The notes beneath the pieces are model-generated. The model saw only the letters and a program-made list of their open reading frames with translations, was not told the DNA's origin and searched no databases. Positions 9,162 to 28,195 of a stretch of 33,612 nucleotides of DNA are shown piece after piece; within the stretch, counting starts at the first letter, position 1; the number at the start of each line of letters is the position of its first letter. The translations under genes were made by a program, and so were the position numbers. The stretch is from Candidatus Zixiibacteriota bacterium (lineage in GTDB: Bacteria > Zixibacteria > MSB-5A5 > GN15 > FEB-12): contig JAJRTA010000129.1 in the NCBI GenBank assembly GCA_024278515.1, positions 1-33,612 on the forward strand. Reading direction: 5' to 3'.

Positions 9162-11114
9162 ATGACTCTGTACCGGCGTACATTTTCGATCCTCAGGCCG
9201 TATGTAAAACAACTGGTCACGGCCTCGGTTTCAGCGGCGATTCATGCCTTGTTGTCAGGCCTTATGGTCTGGATGGCCGGACCGCTTCTGATGACCCTGT
9301 TCCAGATGCAGTCCGGTCCGGCACTTGAAAACAGCGAGTCGGCGATACACTCGTCAGTTACACCGGGAAAAGATACGCCGATTGACTCGGAACTTATCGG
9401 CGGTGTGACCTCTGGAATTGAAGGCGTTCGCGCCTGGATGAAAGGCTGGGTGCAGGACCTCGTTCAGGCTGAGACACGCCGTGACACTCTGTTCAACTTC
9501 TGTTGGTTGATCCTGCTGATTGCCTTCGGCAAGAACCTGTTCAATTACCTGCAGGGCTGGTTCATGGCATTCGTGCAGCAATCGGTGGTGCGCAATCTCA
9601 GGGACAGACTGTTTGAAAAGTATCAGCGGCTGTCGCTCGACTATTTTCATCGCCGCCGCACCGGACAGGTTATTTCCCGTGTCACCAACGACGTAGTCGT
9701 ATTGAACGAATCGGTCGATATCGGTTTCAATCATCTGGTCGCCGATACTATTATGGCCCTGACTTTCTTCGCCTTCCTGATAATCCTGAGCTGGAAACTG
9801 ACCCTGCTGGCCATGATCGTCCTGCCGGTTGTCTTTGGTTTCATCTGGTTTGTCGGCAAAACTCTCCGTCGTTATTCCGAGCGAACCCAGCAGCGTATGG
9901 CCGATGTGAATTCCGTTCTCGAAGAGGCCATAAATAATACGCGAATTGTCAAAGCGTTTTCGATGGAGAAATTCGAGACTGCAAAGTTCCTGCGCACGAC
10001 CCGTGAATATTTTCGTTCTCTGCTTCGTATGACCCGCATCCGCCATCTGGCCTCGCCTATTAACGATATTCTGATAAGTATCGCCGGTGTGACGATCCTG
10101 ATGTATGCCGGGTCGAGAATCATCACCGGCGCCGGCGAGCTTGACGCAGGCGACTTCATGACGTTTGTCATCGCCATGTTCGCCATGATCAAGCCGGTGA
10201 AATCGCTGAGCCAGATCCACATAAAACTTCAGGAAGGCCTGGCCGCCGCGGAACGGATTTTCCGCGTGCTGGATGCCGAGGAAAAAATTGTCGACCCGCC
10301 CAATCCGAAACGGATCGAAATTTTCTCGGACCGCATCAGTTATCGTAACGTCGAGTTCGCCTACAACCCGGGAGAACCGGTGCTTCGTGATATTTCCTTC
10401 GATATACGATTGGGCGAAGTAGTCGCAATCGTCGGGCCGTCGGGCGCAGGCAAATCAACATTGCTTGACCTTCTACCCCGTTTCTATGATCCGCAGAAGG
10501 GACAGATCACAATCGACGGTATAAACATCGCCGAACTGTCACTTGCTTCGTTGCGCGGCCTGATGGGGATTGTTACGCAGGAGACATTTTTATTCAATGA
10601 TACTATCTACAACAACATTGCCTACGGTCTCACCGATATTTCCCGGGACAGCGTCGTGGAAGCGGCCCGTATGGCCAACGCCGACCGATTTATTCGCGAG
10701 TTCGAAAATGACTACGACACGCTGGTCGGCAACCGTGGCGTTATGCTCTCAGGCGGGCAACGTCAGCGTCTGGCTATCGCTCGCGCCTTGTTGAAAAACC
10801 CGCAGATACTGATTTTCGATGAAGCCACTTCAGCCCTCGACACCGAGTCGGAACTGCTTGTACAGGAGGCCATCAGCCGATTGATGAAAAACCGTACCAC
10901 CCTGGTGGTCGCGCACAGATTGTCAACGATTGTCAATGCCGACCGCATCGTGGTAATAGAAAACGGACAATTAATCGAAGAAGGACACCATGAGGAGCTT
11001 CTTGAAGCTCGTGGTCTGTATCACCGCTTGTACATGATGCAATTCAAAAACGGCGAAAGCGTTCCCCGTCCTGATCCCGATCAACAAGCAGTCACACAGG
11101 AGGACCGGCCCTGA
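9162..11114 (+). CDS. MsbA-type lipid exporter ABC transporter (fused permease-ATPase)
   Basis: 650 residues, the normal arrangement of a half-transporter that works as a homodimer. The N-terminal ~330 residues hold six hydrophobic segments with the ABC exporter signature RDRLFEKYQRLSLDYFHRRRTGQ. The C-terminal ATPase has Walker A GPSGAGKST (about residue 425), Q-loop GIVTQETFLFN, ABC signature LSGGQRQRLAIARALL (about 530), Walker B ILIFDEATSALD (about 551) and H-loop VVAHRLST. A ~75-residue insertion between the first two membrane segments (ENSESAIHSSVTPGKD and onward) is a little longer than in E. coli MsbA. It heads a run of sugar transferases, which supports flipping of lipid A-core or another glycolipid across the inner membrane. 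The stop shares one base with the next ATG. Confidence 0.92.
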   Translation: MTLYRRTFSILRPYVKQLVTASVSAAIHALLSGLMVWMAGPLLMTLFQMQSGPALENSESAIHSSVTPGKDTPIDSELIGGVTSGIEGVRAWMKGWVQDLVQAETRRDTLFNFCWLILLIAFGKNLFNYLQGWFMAFVQQSVVRNLRDRLFEKYQRLSLDYFHRRRTGQVISRVTNDVVVLNESVDIGFNHLVADTIMALTFFAFLIILSWKLTLLAMIVLPVVFGFIWFVGKTLRRYSERTQQRMADVNSVLEEAINNTRIVKAFSMEKFETAKFLRTTREYFRSLLRMTRIRHLASPINDILISIAGVTILMYAGSRIITGAGELDAGDFMTFVIAMFAMIKPVKSLSQIHIKLQEGLAAAERIFRVLDAEEKIVDPPNPKRIEIFSDRISYRNVEFAYNPGEPVLRDISFDIRLGEVVAIVGPSGAGKSTLLDLLPRFYDPQKGQITIDGINIAELSLASLRGLMGIVTQETFLFNDTIYNNIAYGLTDISRDSVVEAARMANADRFIREFENDYDTLVGNRGVMLSGGQRQRLAIARALLKNPQILIFDEATSALDTESELLVQEAISRLMKNRTTLVVAHRLSTIVNADRIVVIENGQLIEEGHHEELLEARGLYHRLYMMQFKNGESVPRPDPDQQAVTQEDRP

Positions 11115-12253
11115 TGCCTCCCGCGTTGGTAAAAAAGACTGAGCTTGGATTCAAGAAGTTCCTGCACCGGTTGTTCGGTCTCATACTGGGCAAAGGCGAC
11201 AGATCGAAAATCCCGGTACGCAGCAAGAATATCAGATCTGTTCTTATACTCAGACCCGACAAGCTCGGGGATATGATAACAACCGTGCCGACCGCCCATG
11301 CCCTCAGGGAGAAGTTCCCGCTGGTCAGAATTGAGATTATCGCCTCACCGTTGAACAGGCAACTGGTCGACAACGATCCCTGCTTTGATGCCGTGCATAT
11401 TTATCGCAAGAACATTTTCCATGACCTGCCTCTGATATGGCGTCTTCGCAGAGAACAGTTCGACATTATTTTTGACCCCATCTGTCACGACTCGGTTACC
11501 GGGCTGCTCTTATCGAAGCTGATCAGCAATAATTCCGTGCTTGCCGCCGCGCGTAAACTGGAGCTGAGTTCTTTTTACGACTACTGCGAACCGTACCAGC
11601 CTGACGGTGAAGAACACAACATCGATAACAGCCTGTTGCTGTTTAATGTGCTGGGGATAGCGCCTGAGAGTATCGATCCGTTTCGACCTGTATATCTGCC
11701 CGACGCGTGCAAGCGAAAAGCTGATGAATTCATGGCCGCGCTCGAGGCCGATCGTTCATTTCTCATAGGCATAAACATATCCGCGGGAAGTCCCACCCGG
11801 AGCCTGGCGTCATCGAAATATGCGGCCTTGATCGATCGGATACTACGCGAAGATCCCCGGGCGCAGGTAGTAGTAGTATGTACAATGGCTGATCGGGATA
11901 TTGGCCTGGAATTGACCGAAGGCCGGGGGCCACAGGTCCGTATCGTACCGGAAGGTCTGTCGTTGCTGGAAGCAGCGGCGATTATTGGAAGATTCGACCT
12001 GTTTATCTCCCCGGACACATCGCTAATCCACATGGCGCGTCTGATGAAAGTACCGGTGGTCGGACTTTACTGCAGTCATAAACGTAATTATCATTTCTGG
12101 AAACCGTACCGTCAGGAACATGGCTCAGTGCTTTCGTCACATCCGGGACATATCCATGACATAGAAGCAGATGAAATATACGAAGAACTTATGAAATTGA
12201 CAGCGCAGGAGTACCCGGAAGGTACGGGGCGGATAGTGTCATCGCGGCGGTAA
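11114..12253 (+). CDS. Glycosyltransferase family 9 (heptosyltransferase-like)
   Basis: 379 residues of GT9 (ADP-heptose:LPS heptosyltransferase family), a GT-B enzyme that adds core sugars at the cytoplasmic face. The family opening is SVLILRPDKLGDMITTVPTAHAL (about residue 38), matching the RxDxxGDxxxxxP motif. The donor-side signature is FDLFISPDTSLIHMARLMKVPVVGLYC (about residue 295), the usual SxDSGxxHxA-type loop with a Thr. The GINISAG segment replaces the usual HPGA. The start has AGGAGG 10 nt upstream and one-base overlap with the ABC transporter. Sugar not determined, and family membership is clear. Confidence 0.9.
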   Translation: MPPALVKKTELGFKKFLHRLFGLILGKGDRSKIPVRSKNIRSVLILRPDKLGDMITTVPTAHALREKFPLVRIEIIASPLNRQLVDNDPCFDAVHIYRKNIFHDLPLIWRLRREQFDIIFDPICHDSVTGLLLSKLISNNSVLAAARKLELSSFYDYCEPYQPDGEEHNIDNSLLLFNVLGIAPESIDPFRPVYLPDACKRKADEFMAALEADRSFLIGINISAGSPTRSLASSKYAALIDRILREDPRAQVVVVCTMADRDIGLELTEGRGPQVRIVPEGLSLLEAAAIIGRFDLFISPDTSLIHMARLMKVPVVGLYCSHKRNYHFWKPYRQEHGSVLSSHPGHIHDIEADEIYEELMKLTAQEYPEGTGRIVSSRR

Positions 12254-12256
12254 TTT

Positions 12257-13078
<822 letters not shown>

Positions 13079-13080
13079 AT

Positions 13081-14118
13081 ATGCCGAAGATTTTGGATCT
13101 CCGTCCGGGAGACCGTATCTTAATCAGTCGCACCGACAGGCTGGGGGATCTTATCCTGGCCCTGCCGTTTGTCGAAACGCTCAAATGTCGTTATCCGGAG
13201 TGTCACATTGAAGTACTCGCGTCGCTGTACGCTTCACCGATACTTGAGAATAACAATCGTATCGACGGCATCGTGCGGGTGCTCAATCAACAGCTCGTGA
13301 CCGATCGTTTATACAAAAAAGATCTCCTGCAGAAGATAAAGAAGTCCAACTACCATGTCGTAGTGGCCCTGTACCCTGAACGTCACATTTGCCAGCTTTT
13401 CCATAAAGCGGCCATCCCGGACCGGATCGGCACGGCCGGCAGGTTTCATTCGGTTTTCTTCAATCACCGGCTCCTGCACAGCCGCAAGTCGAACAAAAAA
13501 CATGAATGCGAATATAACCTCGATTTTCTGAAATTCTTTCGAGACGGTGATACGGTTCGTATGCCGGTGGTCTATCCGCGTGATAAAGAGCTGGCCAACG
13601 CGCGCCGTATCCTGAAAGAGGCGGGAGTCGTGGACAGGTTTGTGGTGATCCATCCCGGATCGGGAGGTTCGGCTGAGCGATGGCCGCTTGACAGATTTCT
13701 CGAATTGTATTCAGCTTTGGAAAAACGCGGTTTGCAGGTAGTAATTTCCGGTTCGGAAAACGAAGGTGAGATGATCGACAGTCGCTCGCGGGAACTGGGC
13801 TTGAAAGTACGACGAATTACCGGCGACACCGATTTACGCACCCTCGCCGCCGCCCTGTCGCTGGCCGATGTGGTTGTGGCTAACTCCACCGGCCCGCTGC
13901 ACCTCGCTGTCGCAGTGGGAACCAAAGTAGTCGGATTGTATCCCGGCAAGGCTGTTATGTCGCCGGCCCGCTGGGGACCGCTGGGCGAACATGACCGGGT
14001 TCTGGTCCCGACATCGAAAGAATGCACCTGCTCCCCTAACGAATGCACCTGTATGTTGACGATAACAGTAGAGAAAGTAGCGTCCGAAGTTGCACAACTT
14101 TTTGACAAGGCAGGATGA
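13081..14118 (+). CDS. Glycosyltransferase family 9 (heptosyltransferase-like), second copy
   Basis: 345 residues. It opens with ILISRTDRLGDLILALPFVETL, the RxDxxGD motif of heptosyltransferases. VIHPGSGGSAERWPLDRF is the canonical HPGxG...KRWP-type donor loop, and VANSTGPLHLAVAVGTKVVGLYP is the (S/T)xGPxHxAxAxG signature. It is closer to the canonical family than the copy at 11114. The C-terminal segment has an unusual cysteine pattern, CTC x5 CTC, after the last core helix. The AAAGAGA upstream could be the SD. It is the last transferase of the operon. The next gene (rel) begins about 16 nt downstream. Confidence 0.92.
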   Translation: MPKILDLRPGDRILISRTDRLGDLILALPFVETLKCRYPECHIEVLASLYASPILENNNRIDGIVRVLNQQLVTDRLYKKDLLQKIKKSNYHVVVALYPERHICQLFHKAAIPDRIGTAGRFHSVFFNHRLLHSRKSNKKHECEYNLDFLKFFRDGDTVRMPVVYPRDKELANARRILKEAGVVDRFVVIHPGSGGSAERWPLDRFLELYSALEKRGLQVVISGSENEGEMIDSRSRELGLKVRRITGDTDLRTLAAALSLADVVVANSTGPLHLAVAVGTKVVGLYPGKAVMSPARWGPLGEHDRVLVPTSKECTCSPNECTCMLTITVEKVASEVAQLFDKAG

Positions 14119-14134
14119 AAAGAAATCCAGTTCC

Positions 14135-16273
14135 ATGAATCTGGCCGAGTTTATCATCCATATCGAATCGCTGAACGCCAACATCAATATCGAATTGATC
14201 AGAAAGGCGTATGAGTTCAGCGACCGGGCTCATGCCGGACAAACACGCTCGTCGGGTGAGCCATACGTGGAACACTGCCTTGAAGTGGCCTTCATCCTGG
14301 CCGAACAGCACATGGACTCGACTACTCTGGCCGCCGGCCTGTTGCACGACGTAGTCGAAGACACCGATACGACCATTGACCGGTTGCGCGAAGAGTTCAA
14401 CGATGAAGTAGCCGAGCTGGTCGACGGCGTCACCAAACTTTCGAGCATGAAGTTTTCATCGCGTGAAGAACAGCAGGTTGAGTATTTCCGCAAGATGCTT
14501 CTCACCATGGCCAGGGATATCCGGGTTATCCTGATCAAACTGGCCGACCGCCTCCACAACATGCGTACTCTCGAACACGTATCCGAGAAACGCCAGAAAC
14601 GGATCGCCCAGGAGACACGTGATGTTTACTGTCCGCTGGCGCACCGCTTCGGTATCCACAAAGTCAAGATGGAGCTTGAGGATCTGTCGCTGAAATTTCT
14701 CGAGAAAGATATTTACAACGAGCTGAAAAAGCGGATCAACGAAACGCGGGAGGAACGCGAAGAACATATCGCCCGCCTCGTGGCTCCTATCCGGGCCGAA
14801 CTCGAGAAGAATCATATCCCCGCAGAAGTTTACGGGCGAGCCAAGCACCTCGATTCCATCCACCGCAAGATCAAGATCAGGCGCGTACCGTTCGATGAAA
14901 TCTTCGATCTTTTCGCCATTCGGATCATCACCGACACCGAACGGGACTGCTATCATACCATGGGCATCCTTCACTCCATGTGGAAACCGGTGCCGAACCG
15001 TTTTCATGACTATATCGCCAACCCGAAACCGAACGGATACCGGTCGTTGCATACAACAGTTTTCGGCCCCGACAACCGTCCGGTGGAAATTCAGATAAGA
15101 ACGCACCAGATGCACCATGTCGCGGAAAACGGTATTGCGGCGCACTGGCTGTACAAAGAAGGACGGCAACAGTTGTCCAAGTCGGACCGTCAGATGATCT
15201 GGCTGCGTGATGTACTCGAATGGCAAAAAGAGATGACCAACCCGGCGGATTTCCTTGAGTATCTCAAAATTGATCTCTATTCCGAAGATATCTTTGTCTT
15301 TACCCCGAAACAAAGGCTCGTTCATCTGCCCAAGGGATCAACGCCGCTCGATTTCGCCTTTCAGATCCATACTGAAATCGGCATTCACTGCGCAGGCGCC
15401 AAGATCAACGGCCGCCTGCAACCGTTATCGACCGAGCTGAACTCTGGTGACACTGTCGAGATAATCACGAACCCGCGTCGTACGCCCTCACATGACTGGC
15501 TGAAACTGGTCAAATCTTCAACCGCCCGGGCCAAAATACGCCGCTGGCTCAACCAGGCCGGATTTGAACAGTCGGTGGCGCTTGGTAAAGAGATGGTGGA
15601 ACGAAAGCTCAAAGAGATGCGACTCAAAATGCCGTCTAACGATGAACTGCAGGGATATGCCGAAAAACTTAACAAAAAATCGGTCGAGGACCTGTTCGCG
15701 TCCATCGGCAACGGCTCTATGAACCGCGCCCCGCTGATAAACCTGATCCAGCCGGAACCGGAGAAAAAAACCACCGGTCTGGTAGGCAAAGTAATAGACC
15801 GCCTGCGGGGATCGAAAGGTATCCGGGTGCACGGGATGTCCGATATGATGTTCAGATTCGCCGGATGTTGCCAACCGTTACCGGGGGAGGATATCATCGG
15901 GTTCATCACGCGTGGCCGGGGCGTTACGGTACACCGGGCCGACTGCGAAAGCGCCCGCTACCTGCAAGGTCAGTTCCCGGAACGGCGGATCGATGTGAGC
16001 TGGGATGCGGACAAAAGCCAGTCGTTTATCGTCGAGGTCGATCTGGTCGTCGAAGATCGCAAGAATATCCTTCGGGACATTACACAGGCAGTCGCGGATA
16101 TAGACACCAACGTACGCGCCGCGGAAATGCGGGCCACCGATACTGCGGCAACAGGTAAATTTGTAATCGAAGTGGCCAGTCTTTCACATCTCAACCGGAT
16201 AATCGAAAAGATGCGTCAGGTCAAAGGGGTCATCTCTGTTCTCAGATCTAAAGGGCGGGATTTCGAACAGTAG
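14135..16273 (+). CDS. rel: Bifunctional (p)ppGpp synthetase/hydrolase, Rel/SpoT family
   Basis: About 712 residues with the complete RSH layout. The HD hydrolase domain (EPYVEHCLEV with H47, GLLHDVVEDT with H71-D72, and KLADRLHNMRTL) appears intact. The RelA/SpoT synthetase domain starts near residue 233 (YGRAKHLDSIHRK, FDEIFDLFAIRII, ANPKPNGYRSLHT, VEIQIRT). A TGS domain is near 385 (FVFTPKQRLVHLPKGSTPLDFAF). A zinc/CC segment is near 576 (FAGCCQPLPG). A C-terminal ACT domain runs from about 629. Because both catalytic regions look complete, it should both make and degrade (p)ppGpp. I start it at the ATG at 14135. An upstream TTG at 14090 would overlap the previous gene by 29 nt. Its position after the glycan operon may link transcription, with no terminator seen between. 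Confidence 0.95.
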   Translation: MNLAEFIIHIESLNANINIELIRKAYEFSDRAHAGQTRSSGEPYVEHCLEVAFILAEQHMDSTTLAAGLLHDVVEDTDTTIDRLREEFNDEVAELVDGVTKLSSMKFSSREEQQVEYFRKMLLTMARDIRVILIKLADRLHNMRTLEHVSEKRQKRIAQETRDVYCPLAHRFGIHKVKMELEDLSLKFLEKDIYNELKKRINETREEREEHIARLVAPIRAELEKNHIPAEVYGRAKHLDSIHRKIKIRRVPFDEIFDLFAIRIITDTERDCYHTMGILHSMWKPVPNRFHDYIANPKPNGYRSLHTTVFGPDNRPVEIQIRTHQMHHVAENGIAAHWLYKEGRQQLSKSDRQMIWLRDVLEWQKEMTNPADFLEYLKIDLYSEDIFVFTPKQRLVHLPKGSTPLDFAFQIHTEIGIHCAGAKINGRLQPLSTELNSGDTVEIITNPRRTPSHDWLKLVKSSTARAKIRRWLNQAGFEQSVALGKEMVERKLKEMRLKMPSNDELQGYAEKLNKKSVEDLFASIGNGSMNRAPLINLIQPEPEKKTTGLVGKVIDRLRGSKGIRVHGMSDMMFRFAGCCQPLPGEDIIGFITRGRGVTVHRADCESARYLQGQFPERRIDVSWDADKSQSFIVEVDLVVEDRKNILRDITQAVADIDTNVRAAEMRATDTAATGKFVIEVASLSHLNRIIEKMRQVKGVISVLRSKGRDFEQ

Positions 16274-20654: not shown

Positions 20655-20660
20655 TTGATT

Positions 20661-21560
20661 ATGGATGTGAAACAGTTGATTGACGACTACCTGCACCACC
20701 TGAAACTGGAGCGTGCTCTGTCCGACAACACGATTAGTTCGTACCGCCGCGACCTGCAGGAACTAATCGAAACAACCAGCTTGAACGATATCGGCAAGCT
20801 AACCAATGAAACCGCCCGCCGCTTCCTGACTTACCTGACCAGTTCATCACAGAAACCCTCGACAATCGCCCGCAAGATTTCCTCGGCCAAACAGTTTGGA
20901 AACTGGTTGGCCGAAAAAGGCGCGTTGCCGCAGAATCCGTTCGCCGGACTGTCGGCGCCGCGAATCGCCCGCTATCATCCCTCATATCTGTCGCCTGAAG
21001 AAGTAAAACTGATTATAGAATCGATCGACACTTATACCCATCAGGGCCGTAGAGACCGGGCGATGCTTGAGCTTCTGTACGGCTCCGGGCTGAGAGTGTC
21101 GGAGTTGCTCAAACTCAGGGAAAGTGAGATCGAGTTCGAAGCCGGTTTTATCCGTGTAATCGGGAAAGGCAACAAGCAGCGGCTGGCCCCGCTGGGCGAT
21201 ATGGCCGCGCAGGCGCTCCACAACTACCTTGAGAACCGCCCGGAATCCGACCAGAAGTCCGCTTGTCTGTTCACGAATAATCAGGGGAAACCGCTTTCCC
21301 GGATCGGCTTCTGGAAAATAATCAAACGGGTCACGGCCCGGGCCGGTATTGCTAAGTCGGTGTCTCCACACACCTTCCGCCATTCCTTCGCCACCCACCT
21401 GCTTGACGGCGGAGCCGATCTGAGATTGGTGCAAGAAATGCTCGGTCATGCCGATATATCTACAACACAGATATATACCACGCTTGACCGGGAATACTTG
21501 ATTGCAGAGCACAAAAAATACCATCCTCGAGAATTGGCCCGGCCCAAAAACGGCCGATGA
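20661..21560 (+). CDS. xerD: Tyrosine recombinase XerD-like
   Basis: 299 residues, the exact size of XerC/XerD. The N-terminal SAM-like core-binding domain (LIDDYLHHLKLERALSDNTISSYRRDL) is followed by the catalytic domain. The full catalytic set is present: R145 (GSGLRVSEL), K172 (GKGNK), H237 and R240 (HTFRHSF), H263 (LGHADIS) and nucleophile Y272 (IYTT). The tail AEHKKYHPRE is the XerD-type end, so the more likely role is chromosome dimer resolution at dif with a partner XerC elsewhere. No dif-like site or integrase neighbours are seen. I use the ATG at 20661. A TTG two codons earlier is also open. Confidence 0.93.
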   Translation: MDVKQLIDDYLHHLKLERALSDNTISSYRRDLQELIETTSLNDIGKLTNETARRFLTYLTSSSQKPSTIARKISSAKQFGNWLAEKGALPQNPFAGLSAPRIARYHPSYLSPEEVKLIIESIDTYTHQGRRDRAMLELLYGSGLRVSELLKLRESEIEFEAGFIRVIGKGNKQRLAPLGDMAAQALHNYLENRPESDQKSACLFTNNQGKPLSRIGFWKIIKRVTARAGIAKSVSPHTFRHSFATHLLDGGADLRLVQEMLGHADISTTQIYTTLDREYLIAEHKKYHPRELARPKNGR

Positions 21561-22500
21561 TCAGCCTCGTACGATCTACCGTTTTGCTTTGAAGCAGTCC
21601 GGCTTTAATCTCGATTTTCATTTCGAGATGTTATATCGACCGGTCGAAACCAACTTTTATTATTTCGAAGATTTCGAAGAGCTGGTGACTATTTGCCGCC
21701 GGTATGAGATTGATGCCATCATAATCGGCGGCGCCGGTGACTTTTCACAGGCCATTGAGCTGGTACGCGATATCAAGCTCAATATTTTTCTCGCCATTAT
21801 CCCGGTAGTCCTGTATCACCCCGACCCGGATGACGCCACGATTCTTGCCGCTTATGAAAACGGAGCGGAGGATTTTATTTATGGTGACTGGAAAAACCGT
21901 TTGGTACAGGTTCGAGTTCGCCGTCTCCTCGAACGCAGTCAGCGGGATCTCTCGATCAACCCCTCGTCTCATCTGCCGGGACCGGCGATAATCGAAAACG
22001 AACTCGCCCGTCAGATCAACAAGCAGATCGAGTTCGCCGTCTGTTACGCCGACCTTGACAATTTCAAAGCGTATAACGACTACTACGGCTACTACAAAGG
22101 AGATAAAGTCATCCGCCTGACCGCCAGGGTAGTCAAAGACACCGTGTTCGATCTTTGTCGGGAAGGCTTTGTCGGCCATATTGCCGGTGACGACTTTATT
22201 ATTATTATACCGGTCGACATGGTCGAACCGATCTGCAAAGGGATCATCAAGACTTTTGATTCTCTTATCCCCTTCCGCTATGCCGAGAAAGACCGTGAAC
22301 GCGGTCATATCGAGACCACCAACCGTCGCGGAGAAGTGGAGAAGTTCCCCCTGTTGACGATTTCCATTGCCGTGGTGGTCAACAACAACGGCAAGTTCGG
22401 GCATGTGGGCGAACTGTCTAAAATGCTGGCTGATCTCAAAACCGCCACCAAGCAAAAAGAAGGCTCCAACTTCATGGTTGAGCGGCGGCGCAAGTATTAA
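21502..22500 (+). CDS. Degenerate receiver-GGDEF protein
   Basis: 332 residues if started at TTG 21502, inside the xerD 3' end. ATG at residue 43 (21628) is a later option. Residues ~22-145 have the spacing of a response-regulator receiver (AIIIGGAGD, PVVLYHPDPDDATI, AAYENGAEDFIYGDWKNRLVQVRVRRLLER), but the phosphoacceptor Asp is replaced by Gly and the conserved Lys is missing. Residues ~153-332 are a GGDEF domain (SSHLPGPAIIENEL, FAVCYADLDNFKAYNDYYGYYKGDKVI, FVGHIAGDDF). The active loop reads AGDDF at 228-232 and the upstream RxxD inhibitory site is absent. It may be a weak diguanylate cyclase, a GTP/c-di-GMP sensor or inactive. It is the third gene of the comF-xerD operon. Confidence 0.85.
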   Translation: MQSTKNTILENWPGPKTADDQPRTIYRFALKQSGFNLDFHFEMLYRPVETNFYYFEDFEELVTICRRYEIDAIIIGGAGDFSQAIELVRDIKLNIFLAIIPVVLYHPDPDDATILAAYENGAEDFIYGDWKNRLVQVRVRRLLERSQRDLSINPSSHLPGPAIIENELARQINKQIEFAVCYADLDNFKAYNDYYGYYKGDKVIRLTARVVKDTVFDLCREGFVGHIAGDDFIIIIPVDMVEPICKGIIKTFDSLIPFRYAEKDRERGHIETTNRRGEVEKFPLLTISIAVVVNNNGKFGHVGELSKMLADLKTATKQKEGSNFMVERRRKY

Positions 22501-24404: not shown

Positions 24405-24452
24405 TACTGAAAACTGAAGCTATGACCTTCGCATCTCATACCGGAGGAGATA

Positions 24453-26459
24453 ATGAATCGATTCTCATCCCCGGTGGTCATGCTCGCTTTGCTGTTGTGC
24501 TTTCTGTTGGGAGCCTACAGCTCGGCGACCGCCGCCTACCCTGCCCCCAAAGAGATTGAACAAACCTTAAAAGAGCTGGCCGACCGGAATAAGAACGATG
24601 CCACGCTGATCGAACTGGCACGAACGCCCGGCGACAGACCGGTCCACCTGCTGGAACTGGGCGCAAAAAACGCCAATCTCCCCGCGATAATGGTAGTCGC
24701 CAACATGGAAGGTGACAGTCCAATGGGCAGTTCAGCCGCGCTTGACCTGGCCCGGCTGTTGTTGACCGACTGGAAAGATGAACTGGCGGTCCATCGCTGG
24801 TATATCATTCCCTGCGGTAATCCGGACGGCTACGCGCGATATTTCGAACGCCCCTTGACCGGCTCCACCGTTAACGACAGTCCGTTCAACGCGGACAAAG
24901 ACGACGCCACCGATGAGGACGGTCCTGATGACCTGAACGGTGACGGGTATATTACAAAAATGCGGCAGGTTCACCCGGAAGGTAACTGGGTGGAGGTGGC
25001 CGATAATCCGATCCTGATGCGCAAAGTCGACCGTAAGAAAGGCGAGGTCGGCAAGTACCGGTTGTACGAAGAGGGAATCGACAACGACGGCGACGGTCGG
25101 ATCAACGAAGACGGACCGGGCGGCGTAAACCCCGGACATAATTTCCCGCACAATTTCCGCCACTTCACCGAGACTGACGGCCCCTGGTCGGCCAGTGAGA
25201 ATGAGTCGCAGGCCATCCTGCGTTACTGCTTCGATCATCCGGAAATCGCCATGGCCGTTACATTCGGCCGCTCCAACAGCCTGAAGAGTGTTCCGGAGAG
25301 TAATCGTCGTGCTGAGGCCGGTGGCAGTAAGTTCAAACTGCCCAAACGTTGGGCCAGACGTATGGGGATTGATCCCGAGAAGGAATTCGCGATGAGTGAA
25401 CTTCTGCCGATGGCGCGTGATTTTACCGGCTACAAAGAACTCACGGAGGATATGCTTTTGCAATGGCTTGATGCCGGCGCCAAAGTCAATCCGGACAAGA
25501 ACGATATCGGATACTGGAAAGAGATCAGCGAGCGTTTCAACGATTTCCTTAAAGAAAATGACCTTGACGGCAAAGCGCTCGACGCTCCCGGTTTCTCCAA
25601 CGGCTCGTTCGAGGAATGGGCATATTACCAGTACGGTGTGCCCAGCTTCAGTTTGAACTTCTGGACATTACCCGAACCCGAGAAAGCTCAAGAAGAAAAG
25701 AAAACAGACGATTCCACGCTGACTCTGGATCAGCTTGAGAAAATGTCCGCCGAGGAAGTTATCGCGCTCGGTGAAGAAAAAATCGCTGCTTTTCTGAAGA
25801 CACAAAATGCTCCCGCACAGTATACCGCCGCTATGGTCATAAAAGGACTCGAAGGAGGAATGATCACACCCCGGCGGATGGCTGAAATGATGCGAAAATC
25901 CGGAAAAGATGATGAAGGCGGGGCGGATGAAAAAGACGAAGCGCTGTTCAGCTTCAATCCCGACGCTTTTGTCGCCTGGCAGGAATACAATCACCCTACC
26001 CTCGGAAAGGTCGAGATTGGCGGCATGATCCCGACATCGGATCATACACCGCCGTTCGACACAGCCGCTGAGAGGATATCCAAACAACTTCCTTTTTTGA
26101 AGAACCTCGCCTCACTCCTTCCTCGCCTTGTCATCAAAAAGGTTGAGCTGACCCGCCGCAGTTCGGGAGTATGGTTTGTCGAGACCTGGATAGGCAACGA
26201 GGGTTTCCTGCCGTACCCCACTCATCAGGGGAAACGATGTCAGCGACCCGCCCCGGCAGTTGTGACAATCAGCGGAAAGCCGGCCGACTTTCTCGAAGGA
26301 CGGCCTCGTCAGCCGCTTGGTCTGCTTGAAGGCAGCGGCGGAGTGGAAAAATTAAGCTGGTTGTTACGTGCGCGTGACGGCAGTAATGTGACAATCAAAG
26401 TGAGTAGTTTCTCCGCCGGTTCGGACGAGAAAGTGGTATCGCTCAAGGAGGCCAACTGA
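24453..26459 (+). CDS. Secreted M14 carboxypeptidase-like pseudoenzyme with Ca-loop insertion
   Basis: 668 residues with signal peptide (LALLLCFLLGAYSSATAA). It aligns along its length with the M14 zinc carboxypeptidase encoded next door, but the active site is lost. Where the partner has zinc ligands H94 and E97 (IHGNE), it has E86 and S89 (MEGDS). The third ligand H289 becomes G272 (VTFGR), the substrate Asn-Arg pair is not kept, and the general base E361 becomes N402 (SLNFW). Residues ~145-225 carry aspartate-rich DxDxDG-like loops (DKDDATDEDG, DLNGDGYI, IDNDGDGRINEDG). A charged ~100-residue helical insert (about 405-500) has no counterpart. SD GGAGGAGAT precedes the ATG. It may be a binding or regulatory partner of the active enzyme, which overlaps its stop by one base. 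Confidence 0.85.
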   Translation: MNRFSSPVVMLALLLCFLLGAYSSATAAYPAPKEIEQTLKELADRNKNDATLIELARTPGDRPVHLLELGAKNANLPAIMVVANMEGDSPMGSSAALDLARLLLTDWKDELAVHRWYIIPCGNPDGYARYFERPLTGSTVNDSPFNADKDDATDEDGPDDLNGDGYITKMRQVHPEGNWVEVADNPILMRKVDRKKGEVGKYRLYEEGIDNDGDGRINEDGPGGVNPGHNFPHNFRHFTETDGPWSASENESQAILRYCFDHPEIAMAVTFGRSNSLKSVPESNRRAEAGGSKFKLPKRWARRMGIDPEKEFAMSELLPMARDFTGYKELTEDMLLQWLDAGAKVNPDKNDIGYWKEISERFNDFLKENDLDGKALDAPGFSNGSFEEWAYYQYGVPSFSLNFWTLPEPEKAQEEKKTDDSTLTLDQLEKMSAEEVIALGEEKIAAFLKTQNAPAQYTAAMVIKGLEGGMITPRRMAEMMRKSGKDDEGGADEKDEALFSFNPDAFVAWQEYNHPTLGKVEIGGMIPTSDHTPPFDTAAERISKQLPFLKNLASLLPRLVIKKVELTRRSSGVWFVETWIGNEGFLPYPTHQGKRCQRPAPAVVTISGKPADFLEGRPRQPLGLLEGSGGVEKLSWLLRARDGSNVTIKVSSFSAGSDEKVVSLKEAN

Positions 26460-26461
26460 TG
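26445..26461 (+). promoter_or_regulatory. Strong ribosome binding site for the second M14 gene
   Basis: AAGGAGG (26445-26451) and 7 nt later ATG (26459), inside the end of the preceding gene. It fixes the start and indicates independent or coupled re-initiation. Confidence 0.85.
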
Positions 26462-28195
26462 AAAACACTGTGCGTTCTTTTTATTAGCACTCTGCTGGTG
26501 GTTTCCACAGTTACCGCAACTAAAACCGCCAAAGTGTACTTGTCGTTTGATCACTATTACGACGGGCCGGAACTGGTCAGCAGTTTCGAGCGGCTCAACG
26601 CCGCCTATCCGAACCTGACTGAATTGAGAGTAATAGGTACCTCCGAGGAAGGTCGTGATATTCACCTTTTCACTATCAACAACAAAAAGACCGGCAAAGA
26701 CACCGACAAGCCGGGGATCTATGTCGACGGCACCATTCACGGCAACGAGATCCAGGCGGCCGAGGTATGCCTCTACCTTGCGTGGTATCTTCTGACCAAC
26801 TACGACACCAACAAATCGATAAGGGAACTGGTGGACACACGCGCGTTCTATATCATTCCTGTGGTCAATGTCGATCATCGCTGGAGGTTCTTTTCCGAAG
26901 CCGGTGGGTACAATATCGGACGTACGGCGATGGTTCCGTACGATGACGACCGCGACGGTCTGGCCGACGAGGACCCGCCCGATGACATCGACGGCGATGG
27001 TGAGATACTCAGCATGAGAGTGGCCGACCCTTTCGGCGGCTGGAAAACCAGCCCGGATGATCCGCGTGTTATGATAAGAGTCGAACCGGGTGAGATCGGT
27101 GAATGGCGCAGGCTCGGCAGTGAAGGGATCGACAATGACGGCGACGGGCGGCTCAATGAGGACGGTCCCGGCTATCTGGACATGAACCGTAACTACGGTT
27201 TCAAGTGGCAACCGCCCTACGTGCAGTCCGGCGCCGGTGATTTCCCGATGTCATCCAAACCGACCAGGGCCATAGCCGATTTTGTGGTCACCAAACCGAA
27301 TATCTGTTTCAATTTCGCTTTCCATAACTCCGGCGGTATGTGGGTGCGCGGGCCAGGTTCCAAGCTGGCCGGATTTTACCCGCCTGCGGATGTGAAAGTG
27401 TACGATTTCCTCGGACACGAAGGCGAAAAAATCACTCCGGGGTACGAATACATCATCGGCGGACAGGATATGTATACCACGCATGGAGATTTTGATGAGT
27501 GGATGTACTCGAACAACGGAATATATGGATTCGTAGGTGAGCTTTTTATGAGCGAACAGGAACGATATCGACGCAAGGAGCCAAAGAACAAAACCAAAGA
27601 CGAAGACGAGTTTGCGTATTTCGGCGGTACTGCGGGCGAGGAACGTCAGAAGTTCTCCGACAACCTGACCCAGGGTGAAATGTTCAAGCCGTGGAAGAAA
27701 TTCAACCATCCCCAGTTCGGCGAAGTGGAAATCGGCGGCTGGCGGACATTTACCACCCGTATGCCGCCGCCGTTCATGATCCTTGAGATGGTGCACCGAA
27801 ACGCTTCAATGGTGATTTTCACCGCTCGTCATGTGCCGGAGGTTTCCCTCGAGCTGATTGATGTTACCGATCTCGGCGGCGGACTCAAAAGGGTGCGCGT
27901 GCGGGCCAGCAATCCAAACGCCATCCCCTCCCTGTCGCATAATGCCATCCGACGTAATATCTACCGCAAGGATATTCTTCGGATAGAAGGGGTCGAGGTT
28001 GTCTCCGGCGGCATAATAAATGACCGTTTTCTCAATCGTGTCGATGCGGTAGAGCACCGCCCGCACATGATTTTCACCTCCATCCCTTCCTTCGGGAAAA
28101 GAGAAGTGCAGTGGATAGTGAAAGGAAAGGGGAAGGCCAAAGTTACCTACGAAGCGGTAAAGGCGGCCGACCGGGAACTTACAATCGACCTGTAA
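26459..28195 (+). CDS. Secreted M14 zinc carboxypeptidase with Ca-loop insertion
   Basis: 578 residues with a signal peptide (LCVLFISTLLVVSTVTA). The M14 active site is complete: zinc ligands H94 and E97 (TIHGNEIQ) and H289 (NFAFHNSG), substrate-carboxylate Asn-Arg at N243-R244 (DMNRNYG), and catalytic base E361 (FVGELF). Between the first zinc motif and the Asn-Arg pair, residues ~160-237 hold DDDRDGLADED, DDIDGDGEI and IDNDGDGRLNEDG, acidic loops that look calcium-binding as in other large FCB-group M14 proteins. The C-terminal ~200 residues are a beta-rich extension. It would trim C-terminal residues of peptides outside the cytoplasm. The tandem upstream gene is an inactive-looking paralogue. 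A terminator follows. Confidence 0.92.
   Translation: MKTLCVLFISTLLVVSTVTATKTAKVYLSFDHYYDGPELVSSFERLNAAYPNLTELRVIGTSEEGRDIHLFTINNKKTGKDTDKPGIYVDGTIHGNEIQAAEVCLYLAWYLLTNYDTNKSIRELVDTRAFYIIPVVNVDHRWRFFSEAGGYNIGRTAMVPYDDDRDGLADEDPPDDIDGDGEILSMRVADPFGGWKTSPDDPRVMIRVEPGEIGEWRRLGSEGIDNDGDGRLNEDGPGYLDMNRNYGFKWQPPYVQSGAGDFPMSSKPTRAIADFVVTKPNICFNFAFHNSGGMWVRGPGSKLAGFYPPADVKVYDFLGHEGEKITPGYEYIIGGQDMYTTHGDFDEWMYSNNGIYGFVGELFMSEQERYRRKEPKNKTKDEDEFAYFGGTAGEERQKFSDNLTQGEMFKPWKKFNHPQFGEVEIGGWRTFTTRMPPPFMILEMVHRNASMVIFTARHVPEVSLELIDVTDLGGGLKRVRVRASNPNAIPSLSHNAIRRNIYRKDILRIEGVEVVSGGIINDRFLNRVDAVEHRPHMIFTSIPSFGKREVQWIVKGKGKAKVTYEAVKAADRELTIDL

Follow-up and report, generated by a model that had tools for sequence, protein, structure and literature searches.

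Two overlapping genes in the window, the 33,612-nucleotide stretch of Candidatus Zixiibacteriota DNA analysed here, encode a predicted exported M14 carboxypeptidase (P2) and, directly upstream, a sister protein whose catalytic positions are substituted (P1). Sequence comparison suggests that this dead P1 is a functional partner of P2 and not a decaying gene. The reading we lean towards is that P1 and P2 are an obligate, co-translated and exported enzyme/pseudoenzyme pair forming a heteromer, with P1 binding, presenting or gating peptide, or stabilising P2. That P1 is an inactive paralogue, retained and translated together with the active enzyme, had been proposed in an earlier note on this DNA, and the comparison across genomes bears this out: catalytic positions are substituted in 16 of 16 P1 homologues, and the two genes are coupled in 15 of 15 pairs.

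P1 and P2 are adjacent members of the M14 family

Both proteins match Pfam family PF00246 (Peptidase_M14) above its cut-off of 21.6 bits, P1 with 57.3 and P2 with 132.3 bits. This was the sole Pfam family above cut-off for either protein, with no membership in the TldD/E or M16 families, and a search of NCBIfam matched neither P1 nor P2. Comparison of P1 with P2 by BLASTP gave 30% identity over 273 aa (E=1e-22) and profile-profile alignment a probability of 100% (E=2e-49) over 513 columns, in line with the earlier observation that the two can be aligned along most of their length. By sequence, they are full-length M14 paralogues, homologous over nearly their entire length. A profile of P1 homologues (A1) matched solved carboxypeptidases at E=9e-8, and a profile of P2 orthologues (A2) matched carboxypeptidase T (3qnv) at E=1.5e-22; the alignment of P2 with carboxypeptidase T and with CPA/CPB enzymes extends from the zinc motif through the second half of the site to E270. 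A signal peptide-like stretch stands at the start of both P1 and P2, and both are predicted to be exported. Single-chain AlphaFold2 models built from four sequences were poor (mean pLDDT 51 and 39).

Searching the host genome with P1 as query returned P1 and P2 as the sole matches. The genes overlap by a single base within TGATG, the P1 stop TGA occupying 26457-26459 and the P2 ATG starting at 26459 (Table 1); the adjacency and one-base overlap noted earlier were confirmed, with exact coordinates. Because the flanking genes on both sides lie on the opposite strand, the P1-P2 transcription unit is predicted to consist of the two genes alone. Elsewhere in the window, open reading frames for a XerC/D-type tyrosine recombinase and a GGDEF-domain protein overlap by about 60 bases (20655-22497, plus strand), and an ABC exporter, three glycosyltransferases and a RelA/SpoT homologue follow in series, resembling an envelope polysaccharide cluster (9162-16270, plus strand).

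Table 1 Features of the P1-P2 locus, in positions of the window
Feature	Position	Strand	Basis
tRNA-Arg (anticodon TCT), immediately 5' of P1	24072-24147	-	
P1 ribosome-binding site GGAGGAG, ahead of ATG 24453	24443..24449	+	sequence
P1, exported (predicted) M14 pseudo-carboxypeptidase, 668 aa	24453..26459	+	sequence, Pfam, alignments
P1 parts: signal peptide (residues ~1-28); dead M14 domain containing a conserved pair of D-rich loops; C-terminal domain (residues 505-668)			
P1 D-rich loops	24888..25112	+	alignment
P2 translational coupling element: AAGGAGG in final P1 codons, then TGATG	26445..26461	+	
P2, exported (predicted) M14 carboxypeptidase, 578 aa	26459..28195	+	sequence, Pfam, alignments
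Sulfatase-domain membrane protein, LTA synthase-like layout, convergent with P1-P2	28272-30305	-	

Catalytic residues are intact in P2 and substituted throughout the P1 clade

In P2, the zinc ligands H94, E97 and H289 (H69, E72 and H196 in CPA numbering, used for all catalytic positions) are intact, together with R155 (R127), N243-R244 (N144-R145), Y339 (Y248) and E361 (E270). P1 carries E86, S89 and G272 in the columns of the zinc ligands H69, E72 and H196, N141 at R127, G228-H229 at N144-R145, N402 at E270 and a small residue (S/T/A/I) at Y248. The residues named in the earlier note were correct for P2 (all of the above except R155 and Y339) and for P1 (E86, S89, G272 and N402); the P1 losses corresponding to R155 and Y339 extend its list. 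The residue set of M14 metallocarboxypeptidases (HxxE plus H, E270, R127, N144-R145 and Y248) is invariant wherever readable, being kept in all 16 P2 sequences, and from its family P2 would be a zinc carboxypeptidase. It has D346 at CPA position 255, which we take to be the arrangement of B-type enzymes and which suggests a preference for C-terminal Lys/Arg.

The search for P1 covered 132 Zixiibacteriota genomes and 39 genomes of a second phylum, reached via L032, and found 16 P1 sequences, 13 in Zixiibacteriota (one of them a contig-end fragment) and three in the second phylum. Their catalytic positions are substituted wherever readable, with variation at R145, where four copies belonging to no particular clade have R. 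Where readable, N144 and H196 are replaced by G without exception, E270 by D or N, H69 by E, D or T, and E72 by S, C, Y or A. A situation in which homologues keep the zinc ligands and only the copy in the window is changed was not found among the 16; by this comparison, the catalytic residues were already lost in the ancestor of the P1 clade and the copy in the window is not the odd one out. P1 combines catalytic-domain homology with loss of the catalytic residues in 16 sequences from two phyla, the hallmarks of an M14 pseudopeptidase. Judged by these residues it is unable to form an M14 zinc site or the catalytic apparatus, and from its family it would have no carboxypeptidase activity. A more distant P1 candidate, L052 (G106), was set aside: its resemblance is limited to the C-terminal domain, the middle being masked.

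That P1 has acquired another catalytic site or metal site in exchange is very unlikely. Residues H174, H233, N275, D351, E249 and E251 are invariant and specific to P1, as such a gain might leave them, but histidines that are both specific to P1 and invariant in all its sequences are few, and the acids of the old site do not covary, as the varied replacements of E72 illustrate. Two concrete candidates were rejected. For a replacement metal site formed by E86 and D/N402, the H69 position is T in two second-phylum genomes while the E270 position stays D; for a P1-specific HxxxH motif (H233, H237), invariant in 13 sequences, the spacing is broken in L119 and L093.

The P1 cleft is conserved despite the loss of catalysis

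The extra length of P1, described earlier as a single charged insert of ~100 residues, consists of two segments. The first (residues ~286-380), which precedes the E270 strand, is shared by every full-length P1; the second (~410-500), a charged linker, is mostly absent from second-phylum P1. The conserved full length and signal peptide of that description stand. Across both clades, 37 residues are invariant and identical. Acids or Asn from the two D-rich loops make up about one third of these residues; in the loops, D148, D150, E155, D156, D160, D164, D210, D212, D214, N218, E219 and D220 are invariant in the P1 and P2 clades. The loops give a weak match to EF-hand_5 (Pfam), below the cut-off, and probably bind calcium. 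Another 20 residues are invariant within each clade yet different between P1 and P2, among them the positions R127 (N in P1), N144 (G in P1) and H196 (G in P1). In terms of majority identity, the pseudo-active site of P1 (72% for residues 231-285 and 80% for 381-407) and its D-rich loops (77%) are better conserved than the C-terminal domain (64%) and the extra segments (61 and 56%). Because the cleft is among the best-kept parts of P1 despite the loss of catalysis, this pattern suggests that the non-catalytic cleft binds something.

The same pattern bears on another reading, which we consider unlikely: that P1 serves P2 as a dedicated chaperone for its folding or as an inhibitor, being made ahead of P2 from their common transcript and holding it inactive or stable until export, with no catalytic part. 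The fixed order of P1 before P2 and their coupled translation would suit such a role, as would the organisation of P2, whose M14 domain starts right behind the signal peptide with no obvious propeptide. Nevertheless, the best-conserved region of P1 is its own pseudo-active-site cleft and not a tail able to block P2, and no prodomain-like element was found. Full-length homologous paralogues, moreover, are rarely chaperones only.

P1 is followed by P2 across genomes

Wherever the 3' flank of P1 could be read, in 15 genes, P2 comes directly next and overlaps P1 by 1 or 4 nt, and P1 and close P2 orthologues co-occur in the same 12 of the 132 Zixiibacteriota genomes, so that the pairing is conserved beyond the window. 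The homologous active and inactive genes share one predicted transcription unit in each of the 15 pairs; the P1 stop is always TGA, its junction with the P2 start reads either TGATG or ATGA, and the last P1 codons contain an SD-like sequence, in most cases AAGGAGG or GGAGG. The conserved ending of P1, LKGG or LKEG, coincides in all pairs with the AAGGAGG ribosome-binding site for P2 (26445-26456 in the window). Since the SD-like sequence falls in these last codons, the ending is at least partly a ribosome-binding site, and its conservation in the protein may reflect the RNA signal. Translation of the two genes is coupled by these sequence signals, and P1 without P2 was never found where this could be checked.

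The apparent exceptions, G098 and G088, are both located at contig ends and, being cut there, do not break the pairing rule. G098 contains the start of a P1. In G088, L035 (1-2426) contains a distant P2 (40% identity) and, upstream of it, the C-terminal end of a P1-like protein truncated by the contig end, the two being separated by a gap of ~39 nt with no overlap; this locus is possibly an early-branching pair. When flanks were compared for conserved neighbours that might hint at the substrate, none was common to the whole set beyond P1 and P2, and the conserved unit is therefore the P1-P2 pair itself.

These data also weigh on the possibility that P1 is an independent extracellular binding protein for peptides or matrix, like AEBP1/CPX, and merely co-expressed with P2. 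Co-translation equally fits a role of P1 that involves no contact with P2, P1 carries a signal peptide of its own along with a domain-like extra segment, and eukaryotic M14 pseudopeptidases bind matrix proteins (PMC11266112). Independence of this kind is nonetheless improbable in view of the inseparability of P1 from P2 in all 15 pairs and of a stop/start coupling that is kept across two phyla despite differing flanks.

Phylogeny and selection

A tree of 41 sequences, including 12 other M14 proteins from both phyla, recovers the pseudo clade (support 100/100), the active clade (99/94) and P1 and P2 jointly against the 12 other M14 proteins (100/99), each set apart from the rest of the tree by one branch. 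A long stem (1.65) leads to the pseudo clade, in keeping with a loss of catalytic constraint; the program warned of long branches meeting at this stem, and the exact position of the root is less certain than that each clade is a unit. By this tree, P1 stems from a single ancient duplication. Between the window and its nearest relative, pN is 0.14 and pS 0.73 (near saturation) for P1, and 0.11 and 0.76, respectively, for P2. By its pattern of divergence P1 is under strong purifying selection, and is so in two phyla, the reach beyond Zixiibacteriota being three genomes of one other phylum. P1 is the faster evolving protein, its distances amounting to ~1.6 times those of P2. Distances of P1 and P2 correlate (r=0.84, Mantel p=1e-4), which on its own reflects co-inheritance only, as expected for any co-inherited genes.

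Loss of the catalytic residues and faster evolution are also what a decaying duplicate would display. Decay is, however, extremely improbable for a gene that has zero internal stops in any copy and 15 intact full-length copies, and that combines strong purifying selection with one ancient origin and conserved replacements.

A model for the pair and its relation to known systems

In the heteromer that we favour, the locus would be a self-contained two-gene unit of an exported carboxypeptidase, P2, and its obligate dead sister, P1. Both proteins would assemble outside the cytoplasm at a fixed ratio. P2 alone would cleave, probably taking off C-terminal basic residues, and the remodelled pseudo-active-site cleft of P1, with its invariant Gly for H196 and N144, would, together with the extra segment, serve to bind or gate the peptide or else to stabilise P2. 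A narrower version, in which the pseudo-carboxypeptidase of a bacterial M14 heteromer captures or gates peptide C-termini and so sets the specificity of the exported carboxypeptidase, is possible rather than probable.

The roles of animal and fungal M14 pseudopeptidases are hard to pin down and their active partner, if any, is uncertain (PMC11266112). For P1-P2, stop/start coupling names the partner in the genome, so that what a dead carboxypeptidase does can be tested directly on two moderately sized proteins. The pair would also constitute a specific exported (predicted) peptidase system for the uncultured Zixiibacteriota.

Compared with carboxypeptidase T and funnelin-type M14 enzymes (MEROPS M14), P2 is alike in keeping all catalytic positions and differs by two D-rich insertions and by an additional domain at the C-terminus, whereas P1 lacks the catalytic positions. 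In its logic, P1-P2 would be comparable to several established systems. TldD and TldE of E. coli, an active protein and its dead homologue, form one peptidase that needs both of them and in which TldD alone holds metal (PMC5810440); their fold and family are unrelated to those of P1 and P2, which are predicted exported M14 proteins in a putative complex. Homologous active and zinc-less subunits likewise make up MPP alpha/beta and the bacterial M16B peptidases, the latter encoded by a two-gene operon (PMC11266112), although these belong to family M16 and not M14. Within M14, AEBP1/ACLP, CPXM1, CPXM2 and Ecm14 are secreted pseudoenzymes of long evolutionary retention (PMC11266112 and PMC7706225); they are eukaryotic, have other extra domains and are not known to be co-translated with an active paralogue. 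The M14 pseudopeptidases named in the available review text, four vertebrate and one characterised in yeast, are eukaryotic cases only (PMC11266112). Our literature search, with most subscription papers outside its scope and thus weak as evidence, found no bacterial M14 active/pseudo pair. Operon-encoded enzyme/pseudoenzyme peptidase pairs are already known, and the bacterial M14 version appears to be new. The precedent within M14 is carboxypeptidase D, in whose domain III, an M14 pseudo-domain, almost every active-site residue is replaced and which has been proposed to act by presenting substrates to the active sister domains (PMC11266112); there the domains stand in tandem in one eukaryotic chain, whereas P1 and P2 are separate, co-translated bacterial proteins. 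If P1 does set the specificity of P2, the two would be the first two-gene active/pseudo pair in M14, and P1 would be the prokaryotic equivalent, acting in trans, of the pseudo-domain in carboxypeptidase D.
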